Shown: piece by piece, positions 1-32,641 of the stretch
How the letters are laid out: the number at the start of each line of letters is the position of its first letter
How positions within the stretch are numbered: the first letter of the stretch is position 1
NCBI RefSeq assembly: GCF_013408535.1
Contig: NZ_JACBZA010000001.1
Location: 3,308,850-3,372,849, forward strand
Source: Actinopolymorpha cephalotaxi
GTDB taxonomy: Bacteria; Actinomycetota; Actinomycetes; Propionibacteriales; Actinopolymorphaceae
Direction: 5' to 3'
Length of the DNA stretch: 64,000 nt
Notes under the pieces: model-generated
Seen by the model: only the letters and a program-made list of their open reading frames with translations
What the model was told of the DNA's origin: nothing
Database searches by the model: none
Translations under genes and position numbers: made by a program

Positions 1-1
1 C

Positions 2-926: not shown

Positions 927-1514
927 ATGGTCAGCAGGGACGTGGTGGTCAGCGTACGGTGCGATACCCGTGAAAGCGCCGCGCAGGCGCTGATCGCGCT
1001 GAAGCGGTGCGCTGAGGCGGGCCGCCTCGACCTGAGAGGTGCGATCGTGTTCGAACGTCGGCCGGACGGTGGTATCCGGATGCCGGACGAACCCGACATG
1101 GTCACCGGGGTCCATACCGGCCGGGGCAGCCTCATCGGCATGATCATGGACATCTTCGGCGGTCCCCTGGGCATGCTGCTGGGGTGGCGAGGCATCGCCG
1201 TCATAGCTGCCGCGGCCGATGTGCGGGCGGCGGAGAAGGCCGGCCAGTCGACCGACTTCCGCGTGTCCGTTCGCTTCGGGAACGCACTCGTGGTGGCTGA
1301 TGTCACCGAATACGACGACACGGTCATCAACGCTGAAATGGCCCGTCTCGGGGGTACCGTGATCCGACGACCTGCCGACTTTGTTCTGGACGAACTGGCC
1401 GCCGCCGAGGATGCGGCGAAGGCCGCAGAGACCGCCGCGTTGCGCGTCCTCCGATGCCAACACAAGGCCGAACGCGTCATGCCATGCCCTAACCCCCAGC
1501 AGTCCGCTGAGTGA
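927..1514 (+). CDS. DUF1269-like protein of unknown function
   Basis: A 195-residue protein resembling the DUF1269 family found in actinobacteria. The ATG was chosen because GGAGGG sits at the right distance upstream; an in-frame ATG 108 bases earlier lacks a site. The N-terminal half has a ferredoxin-like pattern. A glycine-rich hydrophobic segment, about residues 70-98 (GSLIGMIMDIFGGPLGMLLG), is followed by an alpha-helical part. In DUF1269 proteins such a segment is often annotated as a membrane or membrane-associated region. No catalytic motif is visible. It follows the PRPP synthase-like gene on the same strand about 400 bases downstream, so operon membership is uncertain. Function unknown. 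Confidence 0.6.
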   Translation: MVSRDVVVSVRCDTRESAAQALIALKRCAEAGRLDLRGAIVFERRPDGGIRMPDEPDMVTGVHTGRGSLIGMIMDIFGGPLGMLLGWRGIAVIAAAADVRAAEKAGQSTDFRVSVRFGNALVVADVTEYDDTVINAEMARLGGTVIRRPADFVLDELAAAEDAAKAAETAALRVLRCQHKAERVMPCPNPQQSAE

Positions 1515-1656
1515 ACGCCAAGCGAGTCGCCACCCCGCGCTCGCGGGGTGCGGGACTGGGTGCGAAATGCCGTCTGCCAGTGCTCTCCAAGGGGCTGGTG
1601 AGGGTGATCTTGGTGGCATAGCTGCAGGTGAGGGCGTTGTAGACGCTGCATGTGAT

Positions 1657-1702
1657 TCTTCTAATCCGGGTTGTCGGAGGTTCGAATCCTCCCGGGCGCA
1701 CC
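1657..1702 (+). tRNA. 3' half of a tRNA-Arg (anticodon TCT), probable attachment-site scar
   Basis: The sequence from the anticodon loop (CTTCTAA) to the acceptor end is intact tRNA. The T stem-loop reads GGAGG-TTCGAAT-CCTCC, followed by acceptor strand CGGGCGC, discriminator A and CC. The matching 5' half (acceptor GCGCCCG, D arm) is absent upstream. Loss of everything 5' of the anticodon loop is what integration at a tRNA gene leaves at the distal end. The identity TCT is read from the loop only. The fragment should not be functional. Confidence 0.75.
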
Positions 1703-1728
1703 CGTGTGATCTCTCAAGAGATCGGAAT

Positions 1729-1764
1729 GGCCTCGAACCCTCATTGGGTTCGGGGCCGTTTTGG
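1729..1764 (+). terminator. Rho-independent terminator behind the tRNA fragment
   Basis: A near-perfect 12-base stem, GGCCTCGAACCC with GGGTTCGGGGCC, closes a 5-base loop and is followed by GTTTTGGTTT. It lies 27 bases past the tRNA 3' end. It is probably the original terminator of the tRNA gene, which suggests the DNA to the right is the old chromosomal flank. Confidence 0.75.
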
Positions 1765-1779
1765 TTTGGGGCCTGGTGG

Positions 1780-1995
1780 CCGGCCGGTGGGTTTCGGTGA
1801 TGGTGGCCGGCTGGGCGGGTTGGGCGCGTAGCCACTTCTTCGTCGTCTGCTGGAACCGTTCGACCTTGCCGCAGGTAGTGGGGTGGTTGGGGCGGGAGTT
1901 CTTCTGGGCCACGCCCAGCTTGCGTAGCTCGGTTTCCAGCCCGTTGCGGCCCTTCCCGCCGGACAGGCGGGTGGTGAAGACCATGCCGTTGAGCG
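1780..1995 (-). pseudogene. IS481-type transposase remnant (integrase core)
   Basis: On the minus strand the translation contains NGMVFTTRLSGGKGRNGLE, then KVERFQQTTKKWLRAQP. This is the DDE-core region typical of IS481-type transposases in which the catalytic glutamate lies in the KVERF stretch. Both the N-terminal part and the C-terminus are missing. The reading frame runs on into the tRNA fragment without a natural end. It is a decayed copy next to the tRNA scar and probably inactive. Confidence 0.55.
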
Positions 1996-2200
1996 AACCG
2001 GGATAAGATCCCCGCCGGCGGGTTCTCACCTGCCCAGTTCGACCGGATGCTCGACCTGCTGCACGGATACGCCCGCGACTTCCCTGCGAGCGTTAGTGCT
2101 GTGCCATGGGGACCTCAGTCCCAAGCACATATCTTCGTCACCGGCGACGGCACCAACAGCGCGGCCGTACGGGTAAACCGTAACCGCCCAGGCTGTGAGA

Positions 2201-2223
2201 GCACCACCGGTGTGAGGTGGTGT
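2201..2223 (-). terminator. Hairpin after the last gene of the kinase/ABC operon
   Basis: GCACCACC and GGTGGTGT can form an 8-base stem (one G-T pair) around a 7-base loop, 16 bases beyond the stop codon of the last operon gene on the minus strand. There is no T-run, so this is only a possible terminator. Confidence 0.35.
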
Positions 2224-2238
2224 GCCGTCTGCTTCCGG

Positions 2239-3717
2239 CTACCCGGTGCTCCCCCGGTCGTCGAACCGCACCGACCGCAGTTGGTGGATGAGGACGATCA
2301 GCCGCGGACCAACCCGGGCGAGCCGTACCTTGGTCCACGCGTGCAGCATCGCGGTGAGCAGGTCGCACGTCTCCCACAGCAGCACCCGGTCACGGGAGAC
2401 CGGCGACTGTCTCTGGTAGGCGGCGAGGAATCCCTCGCACAGGTCGTCGAGCAACCCCAGGTTGTCAGCAAGCTGCGCGTCTCCCATCGGCTGACCACGC
2501 GCCGCGAGGACGCTGATCCCGATGTCACGCAGCTTCGCCCGGAACCTGCCGAGGTCCAGTGCGGGCTCCGCCATGCAGGATCCGTCGAAGTCGATGAATC
2601 CGATGGAACCGTCGTCAAGCAGGACTTGCGCCGGGCGAAAGTCGTGGTGGACGCAGACCGCCGGATCCTCGGGCAGGGCGCCGGCGTGCTGCCGCATCCG
2701 GGCGATCAGCGGCCGCGCTGCGGGGCGCAGCGCCGGCACCGACTGAGCCAGCCTCGTGATCACCTCGTCGACCTCGTCGACCTCCTCGTCGAATGTCGCC
2801 ACCCGACCGTACTGCGCCCCGCACCCGTGGAGCGCCGCGAGCGCCACCGCCGTCCGGTCGAGTTCGTCCCGCAGCCGCCCGAGCGCCCGGTCACCACCGT
2901 CGGTGATGGCCATCCGGGCGAGTTCCTTCAGTGTCTGCTCGCCCGGTACGGGCCCCTGCACGAGGATCCGTTCCTCCGGCAGGTAAGCCAGCGGTTCGGC
3001 CAGCGTCACCGCCTTGCTGCCGCTCAGCTCGGTGTTCCACAGGGACCGCATCGCCTCCCACGCGGTGGCTCCCTTGTCGCCTTGGTGGGTCTTCAGCACC
3101 ACGGGGTCGGGCAGCGCGCGGTCCGCGTGCTGGTCGGCGTACCCCATCCGGACGACCACTGTGCACCGACTTCCCGGCTTGTAGCGAACGACGTCCGGCG
3201 CGCAGCTCCCGACCTTCACCTCGCCGTAGCCGGCGTCTCGTAGGACGCTCTCGATCAGCCGGCCGGCGGGGTCCGGCTGGACGAGGGACGGCACTGCAGG
3301 GAGCGCCTCGTCGGCCAACTCGACGTGGAGTGCGAGCCGGAGCTCGGGAAGCCGACAGCTCCAGCCCGCCGCACCGAACGGCGCGTCGGCCGCGACGGGC
3401 TGGTCAGTCATCCCGCCCGCGTCCGGCAGATCGGCGGACGGGGGCCAGAGATTGCCGACGAGGATGACGTCGGCTTCGCCACCCTCCGGGCCGGGGTCGA
3501 CCCGGAGTCGGTAGCGCGCCAGCCACTGCGCGCCCTTTGCCCGCAACCGTTGCGGCGTGCAGGACAGCAGGCGGACCCGCCCGTCGGCGATCTCGGGTAC
3601 GTGGCGCCGCAGGGCTGCCTCCACGCGGTCGGGCATCATGCAGGCGGCGAGCCACTCCGGCAACGACGCGAACGCCGTCAGGGAGTCGACCACCATTTCG
3701 TCGTTCAGCGGCATCAT
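2239..3717 (-). CDS. APH-type phosphotransferase (kinase-like protein 1, operon distal)
   Basis: A 492-residue protein of the aminoglycoside phosphotransferase/choline kinase fold. The catalytic loop reads HHDFRPAQ at about residues 357-364: the catalytic Asp is kept, but the usual metal-binding Asn is Gln. The DFG-equivalent IDFD follows at about 375. Near residue 180 is an RYKPGSRCTVVVRM segment, a motif shared by all the kinases of this cluster, probably in the nucleotide-binding N-lobe. The start codon overlaps the stop of the preceding ABC-kinase gene as ATGA, so the two are translationally coupled. Substrate unknown; a small-molecule or glycan kinase role is inferred from fold and context, and antibiotic resistance is not implied. 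Confidence 0.8.
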   Translation of the reverse strand: MMPLNDEMVVDSLTAFASLPEWLAACMMPDRVEAALRRHVPEIADGRVRLLSCTPQRLRAKGAQWLARYRLRVDPGPEGGEADVILVGNLWPPSADLPDAGGMTDQPVAADAPFGAAGWSCRLPELRLALHVELADEALPAVPSLVQPDPAGRLIESVLRDAGYGEVKVGSCAPDVVRYKPGSRCTVVVRMGYADQHADRALPDPVVLKTHQGDKGATAWEAMRSLWNTELSGSKAVTLAEPLAYLPEERILVQGPVPGEQTLKELARMAITDGGDRALGRLRDELDRTAVALAALHGCGAQYGRVATFDEEVDEVDEVITRLAQSVPALRPAARPLIARMRQHAGALPEDPAVCVHHDFRPAQVLLDDGSIGFIDFDGSCMAEPALDLGRFRAKLRDIGISVLAARGQPMGDAQLADNLGLLDDLCEGFLAAYQRQSPVSRDRVLLWETCDLLTAMLHAWTKVRLARVGPRLIVLIHQLRSVRFDDRGSTG

Positions 3718-6700
3718 CGGGTAATCCTCCGTGTCCAGTCGTCGTTGTCGTCGAGCAGTTCGAGCGCGGTTCTCAGCCGGTCGTCCTTGAGCTGCCGGCA
3801 GGCCCGCAGGGCCGTTCGGGCGAGGCTCGCGTCGCGGTGCACGACGACCCGGGCGAGCAGGTCCGGATCAAGCGCCGCCCCCGGCAGGCAGTCCTCGGCG
3901 TAGGCCCGCAGAAACACCCGGCCCAGCTCGTCCAGCAGGGGCCAGGCGGCGGCGCCGGCCGCCTTGGTGCCCGCGAGATGCAGGTGGGCCAGGAACCGCC
4001 CGAGGTCGGCGGCGCGCTCACCACGGTGAACCGTGTCAAGGTCGACCAGTGCCATGTCGCCCGACCCGACCAGAAGCTGTGCCGGGGTGAAGTCGCCGTG
4101 GCACAGGACCTGCTCGGAGTCGGGTACCTCGGCCGTCCCGTCGAGGAGACCGGCAAGGTGCTGGTGCACGTGGTCCGCGACCTCCGGCCACACCTGCCGT
4201 ACGGTGTCGAGGTCACGCCCGACCGCGGTCAGCTCCTCGGCCCGGGAGTACGCCTGGGCGTCGAGGATCTCGCGCCGGTGCAGGGCGGCAAGCACCCGGC
4301 CGGCGGACGCCATCGACTCGAGTGCGGCCCGCGAGGTCGGCGCGGAGCCGGCAGCGGACCAGGCCCACGAACCGGCGCGCATCAGCGGCTCGCCCGGCAC
4401 GGCCTCGGTGAGGAGCAGACGTAGCTTGGGCAGGTAGCCGAACGGGCGGGGCAACCGGAGGCCGTCTGCCGCGGCGGCGAACGGTCCGCCCGGGCTGAGC
4501 GCGTCCAGGGTCGCGGCGATCGCCACGCCGCGACCGCCGTCGTCATACACCTTGCCGTACAGGGAAGTCGGGCCGGCGCCGTCGCCCGGTGGCCGCTCGT
4601 AGCGCAGGACGCAGGCACCCTCGCGCGGGTAGTGCACGACGTGGCTCGACCAGCCGGCGGGGCCGGCACCGGCGAGCTCGGCCAGTGCGCCCGAGTCGAC
4701 GGCACGAGCCAGGCTTGGCAAAGCGGGGTCCAGGGGGAACGGGTGGAGGGCGATCCCGGTCCCCCCGACCACGCCCGCCCACCGTCGCCACGGTCCGGCC
4801 GCAACGGTGTTCTCGACGCGCTCGACCAGTGGCTCCAGGCGCTGCTCGACGTACGCCGTTGCCGCCTGGCGGTCCGGATGGACGCGGGCGACCACAGTGC
4901 GTTCGGGCGTCCAGTCCGCCGTCCCGCCGAGCAGGTTCTCCGCGATCCGCACGACGTACCGCAGAGCGCAGCTTCCGTCAGGGAGGTACCACAGCTTCTC
5001 CACTCGCGCGTCGAGCACCGGGTGCGCCGCCCCGGACGCCAGAAGTGTCTGCTCGACTGCCTGTACGGCGAAAGTCGGATCCGTCGCCTGCCGGAGGTCT
5101 GGCAGTCGGGTGTGCAACGGCTCCGCGAGCATCGACGGCCGGTGAACGCGGCGGGTGGGCTCGAAGCCGTTCCCGGCCGGGTCGCTTCCGGACCCTTCCG
5201 GGTCGCCTCCGGACCCTTCCGGCGGCGTGGTGTACGACGGCCTGGGCCCCTCGACGATCACGCCGTCGACGACCTCCAGAACCCGGTCGGCGAACCGGAT
5301 CAGGTCCGGGTCGTGGGAGATGATGATGGTCGTCCGCCCCCGCATCAGGGTGCGCAGCGCATCGACCACCAGGCGGGTCGACTCCCGGTCGAGGCCGGTC
5401 GTGGGCTCGTCGAGGATGAGGATCGGGCTCTCCCGGATGAACGCCCGGGCGATCGAGAGTCGCTGGCGCTGTCCGCCCGACAGCGTCGTGGCCCGTTCGG
5501 CCAGCTGGGTGTCGTACCCGTCCGGCAGTTCCTCGATGAACCCGTGTGCGTTGGCCGCACGGGCTGCCGCCTGGATGCGTTCGATGGTGGCGTTCTCGAT
5601 GCCGTAGCCGATGTTCTCCGCGACGGTGCCGCTCAGCAGCACCGTGTCCTGGAGGACGAGGCTCACCTGGGCGCGGACGGACGCGAGCGTGAGGCCGCGT
5701 AGGTCGTGCCCGTCGAGAAGCACCGCGCCGCTGGTCGCGTCGTACAGCCGGGGCACCAGCTGCGCGATCGTGCTCTTGCCCGCGCCGCTGTGCCCGACGA
5801 GGGCGACGACCTCCCCGGGCGAAACCTCGAAGTCCACGTCGTGCAGGACCGTCGGCCTGCCGGCAGCTCGTGACCCGTCCGCGTGCTCGGCCGGGTAGTG
5901 GAAACCCACGTGCCGGAAGGTCACGCGCCCCATGAGCCGTGGGGCTGCCACCGCGTCCGGCTCGTCGCGAACGTCGACGCTGCGGTCGAGCAGGTCGTCG
6001 ATGCGCTCCACACTCGCGAAGACCTTGCCGACCTTGTACCATTCGCTGACGATCTTGCGGGCAGGCTTGAACATGTTCCGCAGCAGCAGGATGAACAGCA
6101 CCAACGTGCCGACGGTGATCGCCCGCCGATCCAGCAGGAAGATGCCGATCCAGACGACGGCGGAGATGGCCAGCGCCTCGGCGAGGGCGATGACGAAACT
6201 GAACTGCGCCTGCACGTTCGCGGTCCGCAACGACGCGCGCATGCTCTGTTCGGTCTGGCCGGAAAAGCGCTGGAGGTCGATGGTGCCACGCCCGTAGCTC
6301 TGCACGAGGCGGATTGAGGTGAGCATCTCCTGCGCGGTCGAGGCCAGCTCACCCTCCCGGGTGCGTTGCGTCTTCGATGCGGCCTTGATCCGCCTGGAGA
6401 AGTACTGCGAGATGCCGGCCAGCAGCGGTACGACGCAGAGCGCCACCAGGGCTACGTTCCACGACTGCCACAGCAGGACGGCGAACGTGCCGACCAGAAC
6501 CATCGAGCTGCCGACGATGTTGCTGATCGACGCGACGACGAACTCCTCCAGTACGAGAACATCGCCGGTGACCCGGGTCAGCACGTCACCGGTGCGCTTC
6601 TTGTCGTGGTAGGCCAGCGACAACCGTTGCAGGTGCGAGTACATCGCGACCCGCAGGTTGTAGCCGAGCACCCGGCCGGCTCGCGCCATGCAGACCTCGG

Positions 6701-7031
6701 CGAGTGAGTCGGCCGCGCTGTTGATCGCCGCGATGAGCACGATCGCCAGCGTGAGCACGGCAATCGTCTCGATCCGCACGGACGGGACGAACGCCGGGAT
6801 CCCCCACTCGCGCGGCGTCGGTCGTCCGGACTGCAGGAAGTCGACAAGATAGGCGATCGGGTACGGCTCGGCGATCGCGGTCAGCGCCTCGAATGCCAAC
6901 AGGGCAAGGGCGCCCACGTAGGCACGTCTGCCGCCCTTGAACCGCCGGACGATCCGCACGCTGCGGCGCAGATCGCTGACCTTGCGTTCACTTGGCGGGG
7001 TGTGCGTGCCCCGCGTCATCGTGGAAGTCAC
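3714..7031 (-). CDS. ABC exporter fused to an APH-type kinase domain
   Basis: A 1105-residue fusion. Residues about 20-330 form an exporter-type membrane domain (YDKKR/TGDVLTRVTGD coupling region, several hydrophobic helices). The ATPase domain has Walker A GHSGAGKST near 411-419, LSGGQ near 515 and LILDEP near 537. A low-complexity Glu/Gly/Ser/Asp/Pro linker follows, encoded by 21-base tandem repeats (about residue 610). The remainder is an APH-like domain with catalytic loop HGDFTPAQ (about 975) and VDLD. The GTG start overlaps the previous stop as GTGA; an ATG four codons later is the alternative. Half-transporters of this type dimerise, so the complex would carry two kinase domains on the cytoplasmic side. 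The fusion suggests that phosphorylation and export of one substrate are linked; this is inference. Confidence 0.88.
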   Translation of the reverse strand: MTSTMTRGTHTPPSERKVSDLRRSVRIVRRFKGGRRAYVGALALLAFEALTAIAEPYPIAYLVDFLQSGRPTPREWGIPAFVPSVRIETIAVLTLAIVLIAAINSAADSLAEVCMARAGRVLGYNLRVAMYSHLQRLSLAYHDKKRTGDVLTRVTGDVLVLEEFVVASISNIVGSSMVLVGTFAVLLWQSWNVALVALCVVPLLAGISQYFSRRIKAASKTQRTREGELASTAQEMLTSIRLVQSYGRGTIDLQRFSGQTEQSMRASLRTANVQAQFSFVIALAEALAISAVVWIGIFLLDRRAITVGTLVLFILLLRNMFKPARKIVSEWYKVGKVFASVERIDDLLDRSVDVRDEPDAVAAPRLMGRVTFRHVGFHYPAEHADGSRAAGRPTVLHDVDFEVSPGEVVALVGHSGAGKSTIAQLVPRLYDATSGAVLLDGHDLRGLTLASVRAQVSLVLQDTVLLSGTVAENIGYGIENATIERIQAAARAANAHGFIEELPDGYDTQLAERATTLSGGQRQRLSIARAFIRESPILILDEPTTGLDRESTRLVVDALRTLMRGRTTIIISHDPDLIRFADRVLEVVDGVIVEGPRPSYTTPPEGSGGDPEGSGSDPAGNGFEPTRRVHRPSMLAEPLHTRLPDLRQATDPTFAVQAVEQTLLASGAAHPVLDARVEKLWYLPDGSCALRYVVRIAENLLGGTADWTPERTVVARVHPDRQAATAYVEQRLEPLVERVENTVAAGPWRRWAGVVGGTGIALHPFPLDPALPSLARAVDSGALAELAGAGPAGWSSHVVHYPREGACVLRYERPPGDGAGPTSLYGKVYDDGGRGVAIAATLDALSPGGPFAAAADGLRLPRPFGYLPKLRLLLTEAVPGEPLMRAGSWAWSAAGSAPTSRAALESMASAGRVLAALHRREILDAQAYSRAEELTAVGRDLDTVRQVWPEVADHVHQHLAGLLDGTAEVPDSEQVLCHGDFTPAQLLVGSGDMALVDLDTVHRGERAADLGRFLAHLHLAGTKAAGAAAWPLLDELGRVFLRAYAEDCLPGAALDPDLLARVVVHRDASLARTALRACRQLKDDRLRTALELLDDNDDWTRRITR

Positions 7032-8398
7032 GGCAGTGTTCTTTCCAGCTTGTCGAGACACCGATGTGCCTCCGTGGCGAGTGCACCGGACAGCGGCGAG
7101 CGCGGTGCCCGGGCGAAGGCGCGGAGGGCCTTCCGTTCGAGTGCGACCGCCTCGTACCAACGGGCTTGCAGGCGCGCCACCGGATCGTCCCCGCCACCGC
7201 GTGCGCGGAAGTACGCCGTGAGGAACTCCTCGCCAAGTACCGCGAGAAGGTCGGCGTCCGCCGGTCCGCCGCCGACCAGTCCGCACCGAACCGCCTGCTG
7301 GGTGAGGGATGCGAGGAAGGTGCCAAGGTCGCCGGCGGGGTGCGCGACGCCGCAGTGGTCGAGGTCGAGCATGGCCACCCGGTGACCGTCGAGCAGGAAC
7401 TGGCTCGGCTTGCAGTCGCCGTGCACGAGGCCGTTGTCGTCCGCGTCCGTACGGGAAACGGCGGCCCGCGTCCGGGCGAGTCGCTCGGCCAGGCCCGCCA
7501 GCGTCGCACCCAGCGACTCGTCGACGGAGGCGATCCGGCCCGCGCGGAGCCCGAAGCGACGGACCTCGCGTTCGACCGGCCGCTCCCGCGTGCTGACCAC
7601 CGGGTACGCGTGGAGTTCGGCGACTGCCTGCGCTGCCTGGCGTACCCCGGCGACCGCACTCGCCGCCGACCGCACCCTCCGCCCGGCCCACTGCCGCTCG
7701 AGCGGCACACCGGGCACCGCCGCCTGCACGACCGTCGACAGGTCGGGGAGGTGGGCGACGACCGGCGCCAGCTCGAGTACCCCCTTCGGGGACGGAGCCG
7801 CCTCCAGGGCGCGGCTCTCGCGCGCTACCGCCGACGCCTTGCCGGCGTCGTGGTAGACCTTCACGACGTACGACGTGTCACCGGGAGCGAACTCCATCCA
7901 CAGCGTCGCCCGCTTGCCGGGCCGGTAGCGCAGAAGCCGAACCCTGCAACGAGAATCCCGTGTGCCGGCCTGGCTGCCGAGCGCGTCTCGCATGCGGTGG
8001 GCGAGGACCGCCGGGTCCAGTACGTGCCGCAGCCAGGGCAGGTCCGGGTCGTGGGGAAAGACCGACAGTCGTACGCCGGGAGCGACGACCGGCCCGCCTT
8101 CGTGGACGGCCCCGTCACCGCCGAGCACGTCCTCGCCGAGCAGGTCACCGCGGACGAGGTGTTCGCCGTACTGGTAGAGCACCAGCGCCCGATGGCCGGG
8201 CTCGTACTTCGCGTCCAGCACGTGGCACGCCCGCGCGGACCGGCCGCCGGCACCGCCCAGCGCGGCAGCCAGCCGTGGGCCCATCACGCGAGGCCGCAAC
8301 GCCTCGGCGAACCGGCCCGACTCACTGACGAGCCGGCCGGGCGGTCCGGAGCCGGGCTGGATCGGGCGGACCCTGGTACGGTCCGGAATCTGCGTCAC
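7028..8398 (-). CDS. APH-type phosphotransferase (kinase-like protein 2)
   Basis: A 456-residue APH/choline-kinase-fold protein. The cluster-specific N-lobe motif appears as RYRPGKRATLWMEF. The catalytic loop is HGDCKPSQ at about residue 323 (Asp kept, Asn replaced by Gln), followed by LDLDHCG. It lies between the GT4 gene (4-base overlap ATGA at its start) and the ABC-kinase gene (GTGA at its stop), so it is co-translated with both. Length and motifs are complete, with no sign of decay. Substrate unknown. The repeated occurrence of related but divergent kinases suggests successive steps on related substrates, or structural roles for some of them. Confidence 0.8.
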   Translation of the reverse strand: MTQIPDRTRVRPIQPGSGPPGRLVSESGRFAEALRPRVMGPRLAAALGGAGGRSARACHVLDAKYEPGHRALVLYQYGEHLVRGDLLGEDVLGGDGAVHEGGPVVAPGVRLSVFPHDPDLPWLRHVLDPAVLAHRMRDALGSQAGTRDSRCRVRLLRYRPGKRATLWMEFAPGDTSYVVKVYHDAGKASAVARESRALEAAPSPKGVLELAPVVAHLPDLSTVVQAAVPGVPLERQWAGRRVRSAASAVAGVRQAAQAVAELHAYPVVSTRERPVEREVRRFGLRAGRIASVDESLGATLAGLAERLARTRAAVSRTDADDNGLVHGDCKPSQFLLDGHRVAMLDLDHCGVAHPAGDLGTFLASLTQQAVRCGLVGGGPADADLLAVLGEEFLTAYFRARGGGDDPVARLQARWYEAVALERKALRAFARAPRSPLSGALATEAHRCLDKLERTLP

Positions 8399-9666
8399 GG
8401 GACCACCTCCGTCGCGAGCGGGGTCCGCGGGTCGAAGACCGCCTCCAGCGCGAGCGCCGCGGCCTCGACGTCGTACTCCGACTCGACCGTTCTCCGGCCG
8501 CTCTCCCCCAGCCGGCGCCGCAACTCCGGGTCGGCAACCAGTGCGCCGAGGTGCGCGGCGATCGCGTCCACGTCACCGGGCGGGGCGACCAGGCCGTTCT
8601 CGCCGGACCGGACCAGCTCGGGTACCCCGCCGGTAGCGGTGGTGACGACGGGGACCGCGCAGGCCATCGCCTCCACGAGGACGTTCGGGATTCCGTCGCG
8701 GTCGCCGTCGTCGGTGACGCACGGAGTGAGCACGAACACGTCGGTCCGGGCGAGGGCGTGGGCGATCTCGTCCCGGTCCCGCTCGCCGCGGAACGAGACC
8801 AGGTCGCCCAGCCCGAGCTCGGTGCTGAGCTCGGTCAGTTGGCGGCGCAGCGGGCCGTCGCCGTAGATCTCGCAGCGGAAGCGGTATCCGGCCTCGGCCA
8901 GGGCGGTGCAGGCGCGGAGCAGGTCGGCATAGCCCTTCTTCTCCACCAGCCGGCCGACCGAGACGAGCAGCATGCCCGGGCCGGGGGCCCGGAGGGTGGG
9001 AGTGAAGCGGTCGAGTTCGACGCCGTGGTGGATGACCTTCACCGGCGGCCGAACCGCGGCCGGGACGGTCTTCGCGATGTAGTCGGCGTTGACCTGACAG
9101 CAGGTCACCACGGCGTCGGCCGCGGCCGCCCGCGCGACCAGGCCGGCCGTCGGTATCTGGTACAGGTCCCGTGCGTGGGCGGTGAAGCTGAACGGCAGTC
9201 CGGTGAGTCGGCGGGTGAGCATCCCGACCAGGGCGGGGTCGTGGGCGAAGTGGGCGTGGACGTGCGGCGTCCGCGCACCCGAACGCCGCAGCCGGTACGC
9301 CAACGCCGCCACCACGACGGCGTGGTCGAAGCAACGGATCGCCGAGCAGGTGGCGTACCCCCGGCTCAGTCCCGGGTTGGCCAGGACGTGGAACAGCGTC
9401 GCGACGTAACGCATCGGGTCAGCGGTGAGGACGAGCGCATGGTCGGCGGTCCGCGACCAGCGTGCCCAGAACCCACCGACGTCGAGGAAACGTACCGGCG
9501 CCCGCACCTTGTCAACCTGGGGTTGGCGGCGCTGTTCGCCGGAGTGGGCGAGGCTGACGATGGTGAGCTCACGTCCGCGCCGTTCCATCGCCAGCACCTC
9601 GTCGAGAATGAACGTCTGGGACAGGCGCGGCCAGCTGCGCACGATCAGGATCACGTGTCCAGGCAT
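8395..9666 (-). CDS. GT4-family glycosyltransferase
   Basis: A 423-residue retaining glycosyltransferase of family GT4 (GT-B fold). The N-terminus has SWPRLSQTFILDEV, typical of colanic-acid/exopolysaccharide-type GT4 enzymes. HAHFAHDPALVGML and FTAHARDLYQIP lie in the acceptor lobe. VSVGRLVEKKGYADLL and the EX7E region LVEAMACAVPVV...GGVPELV form the donor site. The ATG was chosen for the GAGGGGG about six bases upstream and gives a 16-base overlap with the preceding gene. A GTG 12 bases downstream, overlapping the stop as GTGA, would match the other overlaps in the operon. It probably adds a sugar to a lipid- or metabolite-linked acceptor; donor and acceptor cannot be read. Confidence 0.85.
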   Translation of the reverse strand: MPGHVILIVRSWPRLSQTFILDEVLAMERRGRELTIVSLAHSGEQRRQPQVDKVRAPVRFLDVGGFWARWSRTADHALVLTADPMRYVATLFHVLANPGLSRGYATCSAIRCFDHAVVVAALAYRLRRSGARTPHVHAHFAHDPALVGMLTRRLTGLPFSFTAHARDLYQIPTAGLVARAAAADAVVTCCQVNADYIAKTVPAAVRPPVKVIHHGVELDRFTPTLRAPGPGMLLVSVGRLVEKKGYADLLRACTALAEAGYRFRCEIYGDGPLRRQLTELSTELGLGDLVSFRGERDRDEIAHALARTDVFVLTPCVTDDGDRDGIPNVLVEAMACAVPVVTTATGGVPELVRSGENGLVAPPGDVDAIAAHLGALVADPELRRRLGESGRRTVESEYDVEAAALALEAVFDPRTPLATEVVP

Positions 9667-11852
9667 CCCAGCCCCCTCTGGAGTGCGCGGGCCACCTCAC
9701 GGGTGCGCGCCGGTCCGTCTGCGCACCGGTGTGGCCCGGTGCCCAGGACGAGTTGTTTCGCGATCTTGAGCCAGGTGTACGCGCCGAACAGCGCGGTGCG
9801 CCCGAGGTCCGGCCGGCCCACCGCCGCGGCGTACTCCTCGAGGAATGCCCGCCGCAACGCGCCCGCGTGTGCCGGGTCGGCCCGCAGGTCGAGGTAGGCG
9901 CAGAAATGCGCCACGTCCAGCGCGGGGTCGCCCATCCGCACCTCGTCCAGGTCGATGACGGTCACGGCGACGTCGACGAGGACGTGGCCCGCGTGGAAGT
10001 CCTTGTGGATCGGTACGTCGGCACCGAGGGGAGTCAGCTGCGCGGCCCGCGCCCAGCCGTCGGCCAGCCGCCAGGCCAGGCCGAGCAGGTCCGGTTCCCG
10101 GTCCGCGACGAGGCTCGCCCACCCCCGGCCGCTGGCGCACTCCGCGCTCAGGTCGAGGCGCCGGGGCAGGATGACGTCGCAGCCGTGCAGCCGAGCCAGC
10201 CAGCGCGCCGCGGCCCGTACGCCCGCGATCGCCGCCATGCCGTCCAGCCGGTCGAGGTGGATGCCGGCACAGTGCCGATAGAGCATCAGCCCACGTTCCA
10301 GTGGCGAGGGCAGCGGCTCGGGTACGCGCAGGGCGCCCTGGCCCTTGAAGGGTCCGTCGGCGAGCGCGCGCAGGTTGGCGTCGGCGAGCGCGGCGCGGTG
10401 CGGATGAACGAACAGCTTGCCGACGAGCTGGGTGGGAACGCCGGGCCGCAGGCCGCGGACGGCGTATCGGAGGACGGTGCGCCGGCCGGGGGCGTGCTTG
10501 ATCAGCCGCGCGGCCGTGACGTCCAGCCTGGCGGGCTCGGCGGCGACCGGGACGAGTTCGGGCCGCAGCGCCCTTGTCATCGCGTGCCGGTCCAGGAGGT
10601 GCCCGGCCAGCGGCGCAGACGTACGTGTCGGGATGGCGGCGACCAGGCGTTCGAGACCGTCGAGCAGGGCAGGAACGCGGCGCCAACCGGACACCTCGAG
10701 GCGGCGGTAGCGCCGAGCCGCGAGCGAAACCAGCGCGAGACTCCGCCACCACGCCAACGCGTCGGGATCGACCCGTCCGGCCCGCCGCTCGTAACCGGCG
10801 ACGAACGCGCGCCCTGCCGCCTCGACGGTGGAGCGTTCGCCCGCGTGTCGAACTCCCTGCCACAGCAGGTGGGCGAGCGCGGCGCCGAGGTCGCGCTCGG
10901 CGTCGCATCGGCAGACACCGTCCAGGTCCAGGAGCGTCAACCGGTTCCCGGCGGCGACGACCTGACCGAGCCGGAACCCCCCGTGTCCGAGGACCTGTTC
11001 CCCGCCCGTGGGCTGCCACGACGAGAGCCGATCGAGCGACGCCGTGAGCCGCCGGCCGACGTACGGATCGGCCTGCCGCGCGGCCGACAGCGATTCGGAG
11101 ACGACCCGGAGTACGTCCGCTCCGGTCCGGTGGGGCGCCGCGACCTGCTGGCCGTGGAGGCGGGCCAGCAGAGTCCCGAGCCGGTATGCCAGCCGCACCC
11201 GCACGCGCGTCGGCACAGTCGGATCGCGGAGCAGGTCGGACAGGCGGTGCCCCTCGACCCCTTCGTGTACGAGGACGGCGTGATCCGGCCAGGTGACAAC
11301 CAGTCGAGCCAGCAGCCAGCGCGGGGCCGCCGTCGCCAACTCCGTGAGTACGGCCGGCACGCCGGGTGCGGCTGTCTCTGCCGTTGTCTCCGCGGCTGTC
11401 TCCGCGGTCGACCGGAACACCTTGGCGTACATCACGTGCACACCGGTGTCGGTCCGGAGCCGGTACCGCAGGACGCAGCGGGACCCGGGGCGGTAACGCA
11501 CCGGTTCAATGACGCAGCCGTGGGCCGCTCCGGCGTCCAGCCGCGCCGCGAGCAGGTCGCCCACCGCCGCCTCGTCGGCGGCTCTGGCCAGGCCCGGCAG
11601 GGCGGGGTCGGCCCGGTAGTCGTGCCGCGTCGACCCGTCCGGTGTCACCTCCCAGGCCGCGAACGTGTCGGTCCCCGCGGGAGAGGTCACCCGGTAGGCG
11701 AGGACGCAGCGTTCGCCCGGCGTCCAGCGTGCGTCGTGTGGGGTGAATCCCGGCGTACGGGAGGCTTCCGCCATCACCTCGCCCAGGTGCGGCAGGGCTG
11801 GATCCAGCCCGGCGAGCAGAGCACCGGTCGTCGTGAAGGCCTCCACGCTCAC
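9651..11852 (-). CDS. Double-lobed APH-like protein with a defective first kinase centre
   Basis: A 733-residue protein with two consecutive APH-like units. Unit one has the RYRPGSRCVLRYRL motif and a catalytic loop HGGFRLGQ (about residue 286), in which the catalytic Asp is Gly, followed by LLDLDGV. Unit two has HKDFHAGH (about 613), with the Asp kept but the last position His, then VIDLDEV. The first unit is therefore predicted to be a pseudokinase. A threonine/alanine/glutamate-rich segment (about residues 149-161) is encoded by three 12-base repeats. The GTG start overlaps the preceding stop as GTGA, with GGAGG upstream; a much longer in-frame extension would run through the previous gene and is rejected. 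It may regulate or scaffold the other kinases; this is inference. Confidence 0.8.
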   Translation of the reverse strand: MSVEAFTTTGALLAGLDPALPHLGEVMAEASRTPGFTPHDARWTPGERCVLAYRVTSPAGTDTFAAWEVTPDGSTRHDYRADPALPGLARAADEAAVGDLLAARLDAGAAHGCVIEPVRYRPGSRCVLRYRLRTDTGVHVMYAKVFRSTAETAAETTAETAAPGVPAVLTELATAAPRWLLARLVVTWPDHAVLVHEGVEGHRLSDLLRDPTVPTRVRVRLAYRLGTLLARLHGQQVAAPHRTGADVLRVVSESLSAARQADPYVGRRLTASLDRLSSWQPTGGEQVLGHGGFRLGQVVAAGNRLTLLDLDGVCRCDAERDLGAALAHLLWQGVRHAGERSTVEAAGRAFVAGYERRAGRVDPDALAWWRSLALVSLAARRYRRLEVSGWRRVPALLDGLERLVAAIPTRTSAPLAGHLLDRHAMTRALRPELVPVAAEPARLDVTAARLIKHAPGRRTVLRYAVRGLRPGVPTQLVGKLFVHPHRAALADANLRALADGPFKGQGALRVPEPLPSPLERGLMLYRHCAGIHLDRLDGMAAIAGVRAAARWLARLHGCDVILPRRLDLSAECASGRGWASLVADREPDLLGLAWRLADGWARAAQLTPLGADVPIHKDFHAGHVLVDVAVTVIDLDEVRMGDPALDVAHFCAYLDLRADPAHAGALRRAFLEEYAAAVGRPDLGRTALFGAYTWLKIAKQLVLGTGPHRCADGPARTREVARALQRGLGCLDT

Positions 11853-13306
11853 TGTGCACCTCCGGCCACGGCGTTCTCGGCCAGCCGGACGGCGCCGTCG
11901 ACGTGGTCCGCCCACTCGGGGTGGTGCACCGGGATCCGCCGGGCGCCGAGCTTGAGCTGGAAGAGCACGGCGAGGTCGTGCGCCCGGGCCAGCCGGACGC
12001 GGTCGCAGGGACCGTACCCGTCGAGGAACGCCGAGATCGCCGGCCGCGCGTCCACATCGAGCGAGGCATGCCACCACGACAGGTCAGCGACGAATTTCCC
12101 CAGGTCGAGCGCGGGTTCCGCGATCGCCGCGCGGTCCAGGTCGAGCAGTCGGAGCTCGCCATGGGTGGCAAGGATGTTGTCGCACTTCAGGTCGCCGTGG
12201 GTCAGGGTCGCGGGTTCGGCCGGGCGGGCGGCCAGACGGTCACCGAGGCGGCTGATGACGTCCCGGATCCGGGTGCCGACCTGTGGGAGCAGGCCCTGGA
12301 TGTGTTCGGCGGCGCGGACGACGGCAGCCAGCTCCGCAGACGCGTCGTACCGCGGCAATATCGGCAACGTCGGGATCGGCGGGTACGCAGGCACCGTTCG
12401 CGACCGCGCGGCATCGGCAGGAACATGCCCCGCGTCGTGCACCACCCGCAGCGCCTGGCCGATCCGGCGGAGGAGGCCGGGCGCCCGCGGGTCGGTCAAC
12501 CGCCGCCAGAGCGGCTCGCCGTCCTCCGCCGCCCACCACGCTGCCTGGTCGGCCTCGACGTACCCGATCGGCCGCGCGGGCCGGACTCCCGGCACCGACG
12601 CCGTCAGTAGGGTGTCCAGCGCCGCCGCGACCGCGATCGCGCGCGCGCCGGTCCCGTCGCGATACGCCTTGAGGAAGGTCTCGCTCGAGGCCGGCGAGCA
12701 CTCCCCCGCCCCTCCGGCGCTTTCGGCCGTCACGACGCGGAGGACGTGCCGCTGACCGGGGCGGTAGCGGATGGTGTGAACCTCCGTGTGTACCTCCGGG
12801 TGAACCTCACGCCCACCCGTCGCGAGCCGACCGGCGAGGCTCGCGGCCGTCGAGGTCACGTAGCCGGGCTCGTAGAGGCGGACGAGCCGCGGGAAGGCAG
12901 GATCGATCGGGGCGATCACGAGCGTGAGGCACCCGTCCGGCGAGGCTGCCACCAGCCGCGTGAAGGGCTCCACCAGACCGCTGGCCTTCGCCTCGCGTTC
13001 CAGTGGCGAAGTCCCGCCGAGGTCGGCCGGAACCATCGACCACGTGACGGCGAGATGGCGGGAAGTGCGGCGGTCCCTTCCCGCATCGAGGGTGTAGTAC
13101 GCGGAGAGCTTGTGGCCTGGTTTGTACTTCGACCGCAGCAGGTGCGGGACAACCAGTCTCGACCGACCCGGCAGGCACTGGTCCAGCAACGGCCCGAGGC
13201 CGTAGGCGAACGGGTCGCTGACGGCCCGGCGGACGCCTTCCAGCCCGAGGTGGCCGGCGACGAGGCGCATGATCTGCCCGGACGCGTGCGAGGAGATGCT
13301 GACCAC
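11849..13306 (-). CDS. APH-type phosphotransferase with canonical catalytic loop
   Basis: A 485-residue APH/choline-kinase-fold protein. It is the only member of the cluster with the canonical loop HGDLKCDN (about residue 368), followed by LLDLDRAA and EPALDLGKF. The N-terminal half has SKYKPGHKLSAYYTL and a second IRYRPGQRHVLRVV motif, so the N-lobe region may be duplicated. A Glu-Val-His-Thr repeat is encoded by three 12-base units before the second motif. The start is GTG with GAGGG six bases upstream, two bases after the stop of the glycosyltransferase gene. This is the best candidate for a fully active kinase in the operon. Substrate unknown. Confidence 0.8.
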   Translation of the reverse strand: MVSISSHASGQIMRLVAGHLGLEGVRRAVSDPFAYGLGPLLDQCLPGRSRLVVPHLLRSKYKPGHKLSAYYTLDAGRDRRTSRHLAVTWSMVPADLGGTSPLEREAKASGLVEPFTRLVAASPDGCLTLVIAPIDPAFPRLVRLYEPGYVTSTAASLAGRLATGGREVHPEVHTEVHTIRYRPGQRHVLRVVTAESAGGAGECSPASSETFLKAYRDGTGARAIAVAAALDTLLTASVPGVRPARPIGYVEADQAAWWAAEDGEPLWRRLTDPRAPGLLRRIGQALRVVHDAGHVPADAARSRTVPAYPPIPTLPILPRYDASAELAAVVRAAEHIQGLLPQVGTRIRDVISRLGDRLAARPAEPATLTHGDLKCDNILATHGELRLLDLDRAAIAEPALDLGKFVADLSWWHASLDVDARPAISAFLDGYGPCDRVRLARAHDLAVLFQLKLGARRIPVHHPEWADHVDGAVRLAENAVAGGAQ

Positions 13307-13308
13307 GG

Positions 13309-14580
13309 TCAGCCCTCGACCAGCAGTTGTGGGTCCCCGACCGAAGCCGGGGCGGGCGCAAGCACCTGCGCTTCGGATTTCGGCCTCACCTGGTCCAGGC
13401 CCGCCAGCAGCCGCTGGGCCGCCACCTCGCGGCCACGCAGGTCCGGTGGATAGTCCGGCGTACGGGCTGCTCCGGTCAGGAGCTTCGCGGCGGCGTCCCC
13501 GAACGCGTCCCCCGCGAGCTGGTCCGGCGGCAGCCAGTGCACCCAACCTCGCTCGGCGAACAACCGCGCCCGCAGCTGCTGCTCCGCGCTCGGACCGCTG
13601 CGCGGCACCAACAGTGCGGGCTTGTTCTGGCTGAGGATCTCGACAGTCGTGTTGTAGCCGGCCATCGCGATGACCAGATCGGCCGCGCCGATATAGCTGA
13701 GCGAATCGGGGACCGAGGTGAGGATGTGGACCGGCAGACCACGGGCACGATCCACAAGCCGGCACCGCTCCTCTTCCGGGAGGAAGGGCCCGGTGACCAG
13801 GACGACGACGCACGGTCTGTCGGTGAGCAAGTTCGGAAGCGACCGCAGCAGGGCGTCGAACAACGGGTAGGCGTCCGCACCACCACCGGCCATCGCAACG
13901 ACGAGGGCCGAGTCGGCAGGCGCCCGGTCGAGGTAGCGCCCGCGCACCTCCGCGGAATACCGGCTCGACTGCGTCGCGCACACGTATCCGCAGTAGCGCA
14001 CGCGCTGGGCCGGGGCCGCCGGCCAGTCGTACTCCGCGGCCACGTCGTACACCTCGCGCGACCCGTAGACGAGCACGTCGTCGTAGTGGCGTTCGATCGT
14101 CTCGAAGGCGCCCTCGAGCCGCCACCTCCGCTGTACGGTCTCAGGGGCGTCGAGGATGTCGCGAAGGCCAAGCACTACCCGCACCGGTCTCGCCCGGGCG
14201 GCTTCCAGGGCGGGCACCAGCTCGCCCATCGCGCCGGTCGGCATGTGGTCGACCAGCAGGACGTCCGGCCGGAACTTCTGGACCGCGCTGCGGATCAGCT
14301 CACGTCGCAGGGCGAGTACGTCGTCGAACGGCGACGCCAGGGCGACCGGTTGCCAAAGGCCGGGGCCGGTTTTCCGGATGCACGGAAGCTTCAGGTAGTC
14401 ATGGCCACCGGAGGGCGTGAAGAACTGGCCCAACGGCGAGTCGGAAATGGTCAGGGTGCTTGCGGGCATGCGAGCGCGGAGGAATTCGGTTGCGAGCAGC
14501 GTCGTACGCCGCATGTGACCCAACCCAAGGCCATCTTGAGAGTAGATGAGCAATCTGGCCTCGTCCGCGCTTTCCGCCAT
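13309..14580 (-). CDS. MurG-like (GT28-type) glycosyltransferase, first gene of the operon
   Basis: A 423-residue GT-B glycosyltransferase resembling the COG4671 group of predicted glycosyltransferases. The N-terminus has YSQDGLGLGHMRRT, the glycine-rich acceptor loop. The C-terminal half has MAGGGADAYPLFDALL and IAMAGYNTTVEILSQNKPALLVPR...EQ, the UDP-sugar binding region seen in GT28 enzymes. The ATG has GGGGAG eight bases upstream; an earlier in-frame ATG lacks this. It is the promoter-proximal gene of the minus-strand cluster, and the next gene starts two bases after its stop. It probably transfers a sugar from a nucleotide donor; the divergent epimerase could supply that donor. Confidence 0.82.
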   Translation of the reverse strand: MAESADEARLLIYSQDGLGLGHMRRTTLLATEFLRARMPASTLTISDSPLGQFFTPSGGHDYLKLPCIRKTGPGLWQPVALASPFDDVLALRRELIRSAVQKFRPDVLLVDHMPTGAMGELVPALEAARARPVRVVLGLRDILDAPETVQRRWRLEGAFETIERHYDDVLVYGSREVYDVAAEYDWPAAPAQRVRYCGYVCATQSSRYSAEVRGRYLDRAPADSALVVAMAGGGADAYPLFDALLRSLPNLLTDRPCVVVLVTGPFLPEEERCRLVDRARGLPVHILTSVPDSLSYIGAADLVIAMAGYNTTVEILSQNKPALLVPRSGPSAEQQLRARLFAERGWVHWLPPDQLAGDAFGDAAAKLLTGAARTPDYPPDLRGREVAAQRLLAGLDQVRPKSEAQVLAPAPASVGDPQLLVEG

Positions 14581-15010
14581 GGCTTCGGCTCCCCGCCTCG
14601 TATGTGCGGTCACGCGACGAGGCCGCCACACATAAATCGGTCGGACGCCACCTTCGCAGCGTCAAGGAACAGTCATATCGTGGAGGCCTGTTGCTTGTCC
14701 TCTCTTTACCTCCAGTTCACCTGGTGGGCTTTTGGCGAGAGCCTGACGAGAAGGTCGGCTGGTCGCTCACTAATCGATGTGGTCGACCAATTGAACGTAC
14801 TGCGCTGCACTTCGACCCCGCATCTGGGTCGCACCCTTTTCCAAGCCTTTGCATTCACCACCTGATGTTCCGCCGGGTCGGTTAGCGTCGACTGAACGAC
14901 TCACCAGCACCACATTCTGGATCACACAACAGGCGTTCGAGCCATGCCGCAAGCTGCATGAATGCTGTATCAAATTCGGGCACCAGCAGTGCAGTAAAGC
15001 TGGAGTGAAG
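14581..15010. promoter_or_regulatory. Divergent intergenic region between the glycosyltransferase operon and the epimerase
   Basis: About 430 bases, somewhat less GC-rich than the flanks, separate two divergently transcribed starts. Both promoters must lie here or inside longer leaders. No clean pair of -35/-10 boxes and no convincing operator palindrome could be read, so only the location is claimed. The length leaves room for long leaders or regulation. Confidence 0.4.
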
Positions 15011-16048
15011 ATGCGATATCTCGTGACAGGGGTCGCCGGGTTCATCGGAAGTCAGGTGGCCGAACGCCTGTTGCCACGCGCGACGGAGCTGATCGGCGTC
15101 GACTGTTTCACCGCAAATTATCCGCGCTCGATGAAGGAGGAGAACCTCCAGATACTTCGATCGAAACCCAATTTTTCCCTGCTGGAGGCCGATCTCGGTG
15201 CTGCAGATCTGCCTGAGCTTCTTTCCGGCGTCGACGTCGTAGTCCACCAGGCCGGCCTTCCCGGTGTGCGGCCTTCCTGGGGGCGGGAGTTCTCCGAGTA
15301 TGTCGCCCACAATGTAGTGGCAACCCAGCGCCTGCTCGAGGCCGCCCGGAACGCGGGTGTCCGTAGATTCGTCTACGCGTCGAGCTCGTCCGTCTACGGC
15401 AATGCCGCGACCTACCCCACCTCCGAGGAGACGCTGCCGCGGCCGTTCAGTCCGTATGGTGTGACGAAGCTCGCTGGCGAGCATCTCTGTAACACTTACG
15501 CCGCCAACTACGGCCTCTCCACGGTCGCCCTTCGGTACTTCACCGTGTACGGGCCGCGCCAACGCCCCGACATGGCGTTCCATCGGTTCGTTGCGGCCGG
15601 GTGCCGGGGTGCGGAGATCAACGTGTACGGCAACGGCGAACAGATACGCGACTTCACCCACGTGGACGACGTCGTACGCGCCAATGTCCTCGCGACCGAG
15701 GCTGATCTGCCGCCCGGGAAGGTGCTCAACATCGCCGGCGGAAGCCGGGCGGACGTCAACACCGTCCTTACGCTGTTGGCCGGACTTGTGCCGACGCCCC
15801 TGCGGGTAACGAGGACCGATCACCAGGCGGGCGATGTCGAGGAGACCTGGGCGAGCTGCGACGAGGCTCGCCGGCTCCTCGGCTGGACACCCAAGGTCGA
15901 ACTTCTGGACGGACTGGCCAGCCAGGTCGACTGGTATCGAGCCCGGCTCGAACCGGTTCTGGCGGCGACCACGAACAGCGATCTGGATCCGGATTTGAGC
16001 GTCGTTCCGGCTCCCGCAGTACGCAAGCCCGCAAAGGCGGGTAGCTGA
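15011..16048 (+). CDS. NAD-dependent sugar-nucleotide epimerase (extended SDR)
   Basis: A 345-residue extended short-chain dehydrogenase of the UDP-glucose/UDP-glucuronate 4-epimerase group. The N-terminus has VTGVAGFIGSQVAE (the NAD-binding GxxGxxG). YASSSSVYG carries the catalytic Ser, and YGVTKLAGE the YxxxK pair. RYFTVYGPRQRPDMAF is typical of UDP-glucuronate 4-epimerase-like enzymes. The ATG has GGAG eight bases upstream. The gene diverges from the glycosyltransferase/kinase operon, so it plausibly supplies its sugar nucleotide. Exact substrate (UDP-Glc, UDP-GlcA or dTDP sugar) cannot be read. The C-terminal tail beyond about residue 310 is low complexity. Confidence 0.87.
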   Translation: MRYLVTGVAGFIGSQVAERLLPRATELIGVDCFTANYPRSMKEENLQILRSKPNFSLLEADLGAADLPELLSGVDVVVHQAGLPGVRPSWGREFSEYVAHNVVATQRLLEAARNAGVRRFVYASSSSVYGNAATYPTSEETLPRPFSPYGVTKLAGEHLCNTYAANYGLSTVALRYFTVYGPRQRPDMAFHRFVAAGCRGAEINVYGNGEQIRDFTHVDDVVRANVLATEADLPPGKVLNIAGGSRADVNTVLTLLAGLVPTPLRVTRTDHQAGDVEETWASCDEARRLLGWTPKVELLDGLASQVDWYRARLEPVLAATTNSDLDPDLSVVPAPAVRKPAKAGS

Positions 16049-16313
16049 ACACCACAAGGAAATACACCCAGCCCCCTGTGACCTCCGGTACGGAACACCC
16101 GCCGCCAAGGTCCGCAGTCGGCAGGCAGACGTCGGATGGGGCTGTGGCGTCGCCTGGAGTTGCTCGGCGACACCGAGCACCTGCGCTGGCTGCGGCGCCG
16201 AACCATCCCTGCCCGAGAGAGCGACACCGGTTGGTCGTCGGCATAGGCGACCACCTGGTGACCGTGGACCTGGCCGATGGAGTGATGCATGCTCGCCGGT
16301 TGCGGTCTTCAGG

Positions 16314-18868: not shown

Positions 18869-18870
18869 GC

Positions 18871-19542: not shown

Positions 19543-19549
19543 CCGTCCT

Positions 19550-32607: not shown

Positions 32608-32641
32608 TGCCCCGCTTTGACGGACAGGGGTGATGGCTTGG

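Follow-up and report, generated by a model that had tools for sequence, protein, structure and literature searches.

Bacteria export polysaccharides by the Wzx/Wzy, Wzm/Wzt and synthase-dependent routes. In a 64,000-nucleotide stretch of Actinopolymorpha cephalotaxi DNA (hereafter the window; contig NZ_JACBZA010000001.1, positions 3,308,850 to 3,372,849 of a 6.86-Mb, single-contig genome), we analyzed a seven-gene operon (A to G, window positions 14580-2239, minus strand) that joins two glycosyltransferases and an ATP-binding cassette (ABC) exporter to proteins of the aminoglycoside phosphotransferase (APH) fold. The closest described system is that of WbdD from E. coli O9a, for which part of the published account (PMC3482155) reports that chain-end phosphorylation is essential for export; terminators vary among ABC-transporter-dependent pathways, according to portions of a 2024 study (PMC11231755). 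The operon would share with the WbdD system its cytoplasmic glycosyltransferases and, putatively, a glycan-phosphorylating enzyme of kinase fold and an ABC exporter that depends on the mark. It differs in that the exporter is an MsbA-like half-transporter rather than Wzm/Wzt, the kinases have the APH fold and in some cases form one protein with the exporter, the glycosyltransferases are GT28-like and GT4, and no methyltransferase lies in the operon. By analogy, then, the operon would work like WbdD without being a member of that system, since the exporter and kinase families differ. We rate it a variation on ABC-dependent glycan export with a kinase mark, and consider the chances about even that it encodes an ABC-exporter-dependent glycan pathway in which APH-fold kinases phosphorylate the glycan in the cytoplasm.

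All seven genes were confirmed at their place and on their strand, with successive junctions of +2, −4, −16, −4, −4 and −4 bases. Gene A (13309..14580, 423 aa) encodes a GT28-like glycosyltransferase of GT-B fold (Pfam Glyco_tran_28_C, 2.2e-09). Its AlphaFold model has a predicted local distance difference test score (pLDDT) of 68, and the top Foldseek matches include MurG and UDP-GlcNAc 2-epimerases; a profile search found no PDB relative. Gene D (8395..9666, 423 aa) encodes a GT4 glycosyltransferase (Glycos_transf_1, 1.5e-37). Three further genes each encode a single APH-fold kinase: B (11849..13306, 485 aa; APH, 7.9e-14), with HGDLKCDN and DLD motifs intact and of Asn type; E (7028..8398, 456 aa); and G (2239..3717, 492 aa; APH, 6.9e-12), with HHDFRPAQ and DFD intact. 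Gene C (9651..11852, 733 aa) matches Pfam APH in two stretches, C1 (10593..11564) and C2 (9654..10580, motif HKDFHAGH), both with approximate limits. Gene F (3714..7031, 1105 aa) encodes an MsbA-like half-transporter with ABC_membrane (PF00664) followed by ABC_tran and then an APH unit (3717..5174, upper limit approximate) with HGDFTPAQ and DLD intact. Divergent from A, across 430 bp, lies gene H (15011..16048, plus strand), an NAD-dependent sugar-nucleotide epimerase by Pfam (Epimerase) and by phmmer against the PDB. The layout proposed in a sequence-only reading of this DNA thus held: tightly packed minus-strand genes with overlaps or a 2-base gap, six APH units spread over five proteins with one fused to an ABC exporter, a GT28-like and a GT4 enzyme as the other two genes, and a divergent epimerase.

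The genes have a strong codon-position GC signal (0.84-0.91 at third positions vs. 0.48-0.55 at second positions). Whole-gene ratios of nonsynonymous to synonymous substitution of 0.13-0.54 against two congeners show purifying selection on all seven. B, C, E, and G exceed the Pfam APH cut-off of 23.2 bits. The Pfam search of the window proteins reported no APH match in the C-terminal part of F; a genome-level PF01636 search gives 47.3 bits at that place, and the assignment is further backed by BLAST similarity to E, G, and C and by the intact HGD and DLD motifs. An in-house APH profile also matches, with the F unit itself among its seeds. The host genome holds 105 PF01636 match segments, some genes accounting for two. 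Taking 95 APH genes as a rounded count, the Poisson probability of five in one given 12.3-kb stretch, uncorrected for scanning of the genome, is ∼1e-6. None of A to G or H reached an NCBIfam equivalog cut-off among the families listed (the best 25 for D, F, and H).

The six APH units fall into old, separate lineages. When 81 units were placed in one tree, each of the six (B, C1, C2, E, F, and G) formed a separate clade with strong support and with members from Actinopolymorpha and from further genera, so on this tree they are best read as old paralogues kept together and not as a recent expansion. Both the HxD and the DxD aspartate persist in the B, C2, E, F, and G units examined (n = 7, 8, 8, 9, and 5) save in three decayed cases: the E and B units of A. 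pittospori, of which E lacks the conserved Lys, the catalytic Asp, and the Gln and B lacks one Asp, and the C2 unit of a relict copy in the own genome. C1 is a predicted conserved pseudokinase whose catalytic Asp is replaced by Gly or Ala: seven of its eight orthologous units read HGG or HGA, and the eighth, from the relict copy (L125), keeps the Asp without the conserved His. Classical APH enzymes carry Asn in the catalytic motif. Most units here have Gln or His at that position; the exceptions are the seven B units and one Manganitrophus unit, which all retain Asn, and three units that carry Leu, Lys, or Glu there.

E was modelled with AlphaFold (pLDDT 89, predicted template-modelling score 0.90), and the model clearly has an extra N-lobe-like domain ahead of a complete kinase. 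Sequence support for such a second N-lobe is fair in the window's C1, E, and F (E-values of 5e-6 to 1e-4, with 0.0024 the best of 380 shuffles) and weak in the window's B and G and in some E orthologues (L002 and L003). We dropped the tandem N-lobe as a novelty because glucosamine kinase and maltokinases have a comparable N-terminal cap, built of helices and three antiparallel strands, according to the portion of the literature consulted (PMC6520443). By that description, without superposition, those enzymes resemble E in this cap and in an APH-like C-lobe; they differ in a signature absent here, and no trehalose or glycogen gene lies in the operon. The 50 listed Foldseek matches of E comprise peptide, steroid, methylthioribose, choline, sugar, and antibiotic kinases at query TM scores of 0.36-0.52, a mixture that does not name the substrate. 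A single-sequence search with E gave no convincing PDB relative; the kinase profile matches 22 PDB sequences, with corramycin phosphotransferase best at 6e-10.

Conservation of the gene set in other actinomycete genomes, proposed as a test in the sequence-only reading, was found in several relatives. Scanning a genome collection with A returned loci in A. rutila (94% identity), A. pittospori (71%), and Phycicoccus sp. Soil748 (60%). The order A-B-C-D-E-F-G is identical in A. rutila, in two further Actinopolymorpha loci (L043 and L044), in L046, in Phycicoccus (G truncated by the end of the fetched locus), and in genome G328 (L034). A. pittospori has A to E, with F and G not adjoining. Genome G432 has A, both C-type units, D, E, two F-type kinases, and G, with A and one C-type unit on the opposite strand. 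Within the order, A-like proteins occur in 51 of 391 genomes (threshold 1e-10); identity is at least 60% in eight of these, namely six Actinopolymorpha (the own genome included), G317, and G328, and ∼32-38% in the rest. Across the phylum, 18 of 396 genomes (own included) carry one, at 51% in G432 and 35-40% in the others. No GT4b-best match was seen in the fetched elaborated loci, where the search for it was made. Gene calls in fetched loci came from a custom script, and their start positions are approximate. The host genome also holds a relict second copy of B and C, ∼61% identical (G000:C1:5005929-5009668, L125:6929-10668), in whose C units conserved catalytic residues are missing. This relict adjoins an F420H2-dependent quinone reductase gene, and a similar gene, judged by eye, flanks the A. 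pittospori cluster.

Most distant relatives of A head a simpler, six-gene basal cluster with the usual order A (GT28-like), GT4, GT4b, ABC exporter, APH1, APH2. We counted loci with at least 7.5 kb of sequence downstream of A, which excluded 6 of 43 order loci and 7 of 16 phylum loci as shorter; the counts also omit order locus G341, the eight elaborated genomes, and G432, and the elaborated genome G328 contributes one of the 37 order loci retained, through a second, distant locus. A D-type GT4 was present in 36 of the 37, GT4b in 34, an MsbA-like exporter in 36, at least one APH gene in all 37, and at least two in 34. D, GT4b, the exporter, and two APH genes are all present in each of the nine phylum loci that were long enough. 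GT4, GT4b, ABC exporter, and at least one APH gene thus occur together in 43 of 46 loci (34/37 order, 9/9 phylum). One genome, G108 (L051), departs from the usual order. Among the 40 genera sampled in the order, 16 have A-like genes with this neighborhood. Four proteins from one of the basal clusters were compared with NCBIfam, and none reached an equivalog cut-off among the families listed (the best 25 for the exporter). The HxD and DxD aspartates are kept in 34 of 34 basal units, 17 in the APH1 position and 17 in the APH2 position, from 17 loci picked for the tree (one, L073_2804, counted as APH1 by position only). This basal gene set is widespread and apparently unstudied. Sulfotransferase-type genes lie directly downstream of two basal clusters from phylum-level genomes, L073 and L074 (Pfam-checked in L073 only), which suggests that their products are sulfated.

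By gene content, the window operon appears to be an elaborated relative of this basal cluster, without GT4b and with six APH units. A, the D-type GT4, and the MsbA-like exporter all stand on one strand, as in the basal cluster; C2 appears related to APH2, and most units share the Gln/His-type catalytic motif. C2 falls in a clade (99/97) with the APH2 units of Escherichia and of family f21 from the same phylum, and no window unit falls inside the APH1 clade; units from L125 and L002 were excluded from this tree. The window differs from the basal cluster in having no GT4b, six APH units where two are usual, and kinase genes placed between A, D, and the exporter. The form in Actinopolymorpha and its relatives has five kinase units with intact catalytic residues in addition to the putative pseudokinase C1. 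The sequence-only reading had known of no described system with this composition; we likewise saw no characterized cluster of this kind in searches of open-licence papers aimed at the composition (in one of them, 10 of the 40 papers that matched were listed), but the operon is not isolated, since it elaborates a cluster that occurs in its order, in the rest of its phylum both inside and outside its class, and on Escherichia plasmids.

The basal cluster extends beyond the Actinomycetota. Plasmid searches with A returned 275 records, 223 of them from Rhizobium or Sinorhizobium. An Escherichia IncF plasmid (L132/L134) carries consecutively A, GT4, GT4b, ABC, APH1, APH2, an alginate-export-family protein (PF13372, Alginate_exp), and a sugar-nucleotide dehydrogenase gene (UDPG_MGDP_dh). 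Its A is 33% identical to the window's A, its GT4 31% to D, its GT4b 43% to a basal GT4b, and its exporter 32% to F. It has the six basal genes in basal order; unlike the window, it adds the alginate-export protein and the dehydrogenase, has two kinases, and lacks window-type extra units. Escherichia APH1 lies inside the actinobacterial APH1 clade (97/89), and Escherichia APH2 joins the f21 APH2 units with the window's C2 one step out (99/97). Of 5426 E. coli genomes, 18 carry the segment from A through the alginate-export gene at 99% or more, in every case on a plasmid. Fifteen E. coli records listed with the cluster come from crow, beef, lettuce, cattle, other animal sources, and one human. 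The Escherichia APH genes are annotated as aminoglycoside phosphotransferase family, yet lie within a sugar-export operon. Escherichia A, both kinases, and the export protein reached no NCBIfam equivalog cut-off among the families listed; the dehydrogenase exceeds a subfamily cut-off.

More distant plasmid versions vary in content. A Candidatus Manganitrophus plasmid carries A, GT4, an alginate-lyase-family gene, two phosphotransferases, and an alginate-export gene. Three scanned loci, from Rhizobium, Sulfitobacter, and Azospirillum plasmids, have A and D with another exporter and no APH match. Sugar-nucleotide dehydrogenase or polysaccharide lyase genes are found close to the alphaproteobacterial relatives, and a Sinorhizobium version lies near a polysaccharide lyase. 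Five plasmid loci from Rhizobium, Sulfitobacter, Azospirillum, and Sinorhizobium (L085, L086, L088, L131, and L133) combine A/D homologues with ABC importer, adenylate cyclase, or dehydrogenase genes. Four of the five have an unusual long ABC exporter, which in L086 and L088 ends in a cyclic-nucleotide-binding-like domain, judged by eye. The A/D homologues of R. etli CIAT 652 are annotated redA/redB; searches of open-licence papers on redA/redB in Rhizobium, on COG4671, and on Actinopolymorpha yielded nothing informative.

Several genes suggest a uronic acid. The best PDB matches of H by phmmer are 6zl6 and MoeE5 (1.9e-79 and 8.8e-69), which we take to be UDP-glucuronate 4-epimerases. An H-type gene stands beside A in L001, L003, L043, L044, L046, and L122, and is not beside it in L002 or L034. 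The own genome encodes a dehydrogenase 51% identical to the cluster-type dehydrogenase, and 15 of the 37 order loci and 1 of the 9 phylum loci have a UDP-glucose-dehydrogenase-type gene in the sequence fetched around A (20 kb at most). Together with H, these dehydrogenases suggest that the donor is UDP-glucuronate or UDP-galacturonate. The A-H intergenic region (14581..15010, GC 0.57), partly conserved in an alignment of five Actinopolymorpha genomes, is likely a divergent promoter region; it contains no sigma-70 consensus promoter (0.3 expected). Terminator-like sites numbered one against 3.3 expected, and an RNA element was rejected, with no Rfam match in window positions 1-20000. Farther along, at 30874-36864, an IS110-type transposase gene and a lower-GC helicase/DUF2726 gene (56% GC in 34001-36000) mark a stretch that is possibly a recent acquisition.

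F scores 411.4 bits against the NCBIfam MsbA family (TIGR02203), under the cut-off of 602; it shares the ABC_membrane and ABC_tran order of MsbA- and PglK-type flippases and differs from them in falling under both cut-offs (1000 for PglK) and in its C-terminal APH unit. Pfam reported no carbohydrate-binding module in F. ABC-APH fusions occur in the elaborated clusters of the window, L001, L003 (twice), L034, L043, L044, L046, and L072, and in the basal clusters L078 and L080. The fused kinases lie in separate clades (the F clade, 100/99; L078 and L080 inside the APH1 clade, 96/92), so the kinase-exporter fusion, judged from these placements, apparently arose twice. In G317 the ABC and kinase parts are separate genes. 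A genome-wide search found no F orthologue in A. pittospori (best match 37%, ABC part only), and there the missing F coincides with an E that has lost catalytic residues. The second Phycicoccus fusion (L003:484-4119) stands on the opposite strand beside a protein kinase gene.

These elements can be assembled into a mechanism. A UDP-glucose dehydrogenase and epimerase H would supply a UDP-uronic acid, which A and D would use in the cytoplasm to assemble a chain containing uronic acid on a membrane acceptor. Phosphate would be added to this glycan by the APH-fold kinases, and the exporter F, with its own kinase unit, would move the product out. The phosphate may cap the chain and license export, as in WbdD. 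We infer that the product is a polysaccharide with uronic acid and that the kinases act on the glycan; that phosphorylation would end the chain and be needed for export is speculative and argued from analogy. The Escherichia alginate-export-family protein and dehydrogenase point to an exported uronic-acid-containing polysaccharide, and the alginate-export, alginate-lyase-family, and polysaccharide lyase neighbors favor a polysaccharide over a small glycoside. The sequence-only reading had proposed a pathway that builds, phosphorylates, and exports a glycoside or glycolipid. Its outline is supported by the conserved gene set and by an MsbA-like exporter of a type that moves lipids or amphipaths; its product is less well supported, a polysaccharide being likelier than a small glycoside.

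Several observations weigh against a phosphorylated, exported uronic-acid glycan. Of the 46 basal loci, only 16 have the dehydrogenase nearby. The alginate-export evidence is drawn from distant relatives, with A at 33% identity, and an alginate-type outer membrane is lacking in Actinobacteria. Neither an initiating transferase gene nor a lipid-carrier gene was recognized in the operon, and F is not of Wzm/Wzt type. The Rhizobium, Sulfitobacter, and Azospirillum clusters without APH genes indicate that the glycosyltransferases are able to work without these kinases. The nearest PDB folds to E are small-molecule or peptide kinases, and Arg stands at the expected ATP-lysine in 10 of 17 basal APH1-position units, a column that may be misaligned. 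In L034, A and G are each in two pieces, so that this copy may be damaged.

The similarity of F to MsbA, Sav1866, and P-glycoprotein type exporters, together with matches of D to, among others, PimB′- and MshA-type GT4 enzymes, would also suit a phosphoglycolipid pathway, in which A and D add one or a few sugars to a membrane lipid, the kinases phosphorylate the head group much as heptose kinases phosphorylate the lipopolysaccharide core, and F flips the lipid. An inositol-phosphate synthase gene (by Pfam) lies beside L034 and an apparent, partly masked one (by eye) beside L003; none was matched in the window or in the fetched Actinopolymorpha loci, and the alginate and lyase genes of the distant versions suggest a longer chain. 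We regard this pathway, the chief rival, as unlikely, though with an appreciable share of the probability. The APH proteins could also act elsewhere than on the glycan, either supplying sugar phosphates for nucleotide-sugar synthesis or regulating the exporter. Maltokinase and glucosamine kinase, whose catalytic motif has Gln instead of Asn, are among the structural matches (ranks 39-50), and the C1 pseudokinase and the kinase-exporter fusion suit regulation as well. Glucosamine kinase itself was rejected: its signature Q-x2-RE-x2-YA (searched as Q..RE..[YA]A) is in none of B, C, E, F, and G. With no nucleotidyltransferase gene in the operon, and with five intact kinase units of old, separate lineages exceeding the needs of precursor supply, a role away from the glycan seems to us improbable.

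A further reading is an aminoglycoside-like or other small glycoside that is made as an inactive phosphate and then exported, as for streptomycin. APH units, a GT4 enzyme, and an exporter occur together here, and Foldseek and profile matches include antibiotic kinases; we nonetheless find such a product very improbable given a neighborhood shared by 16 genera of the order and by Escherichia plasmids, the absence of any recognized aminocyclitol gene from the operon, and the ill-fitting alginate-export and polysaccharide lyase neighbors. Scarcely credible, and rejected as a working reading, is a pathway for a ribosomally synthesized and post-translationally modified peptide (class V lanthipeptide or thioamitide type) with LxmK- or TvaE-like kinases. 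LxmK is the best NCBIfam match of B, C, E, and G, Foldseek ranks TvaE 1 and LxmK 7 for E, and the cacaoidin cluster, according to part of a report on it (PMC8068269), combines such a kinase with glycosyltransferases and ABC transporters. The LxmK scores of 25-46 bits, however, are far under the cut-off of 315, the HopA1 (LxmY-type) member is absent from eight of nine cluster-bearing genomes, the own one included, and no conserved short open reading frame was seen by eye in the five-genome alignment of the A-H gap. An anti-phage defence system was likewise rejected: PADLOC matched only mad3 and mad8, with the best stretches in the ATPase part of F.

If the kinases do act on an exported glycan, a wider claim can be framed, which we put forward tentatively and are inclined to doubt: a fourth bacterial polysaccharide export route, in which an MsbA-like half-transporter would move a kinase-phosphorylated uronic-acid glycan and kinase and exporter would sometimes be one protein, present in more than one class of Actinomycetota and on Escherichia plasmids, with a six-unit version including a dedicated pseudokinase in Actinopolymorpha. 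Actinobacterial genes and a plasmid-borne Escherichia cluster would then be brought under one system. Many proteins annotated as aminoglycoside phosphotransferase family, probably not resistance enzymes, would gain a testable role linked to the export of envelope sugars. Should export be licensed by phosphorylation, the ABC-kinase fusion would physically and directly couple the modification of the glycan to its transport.

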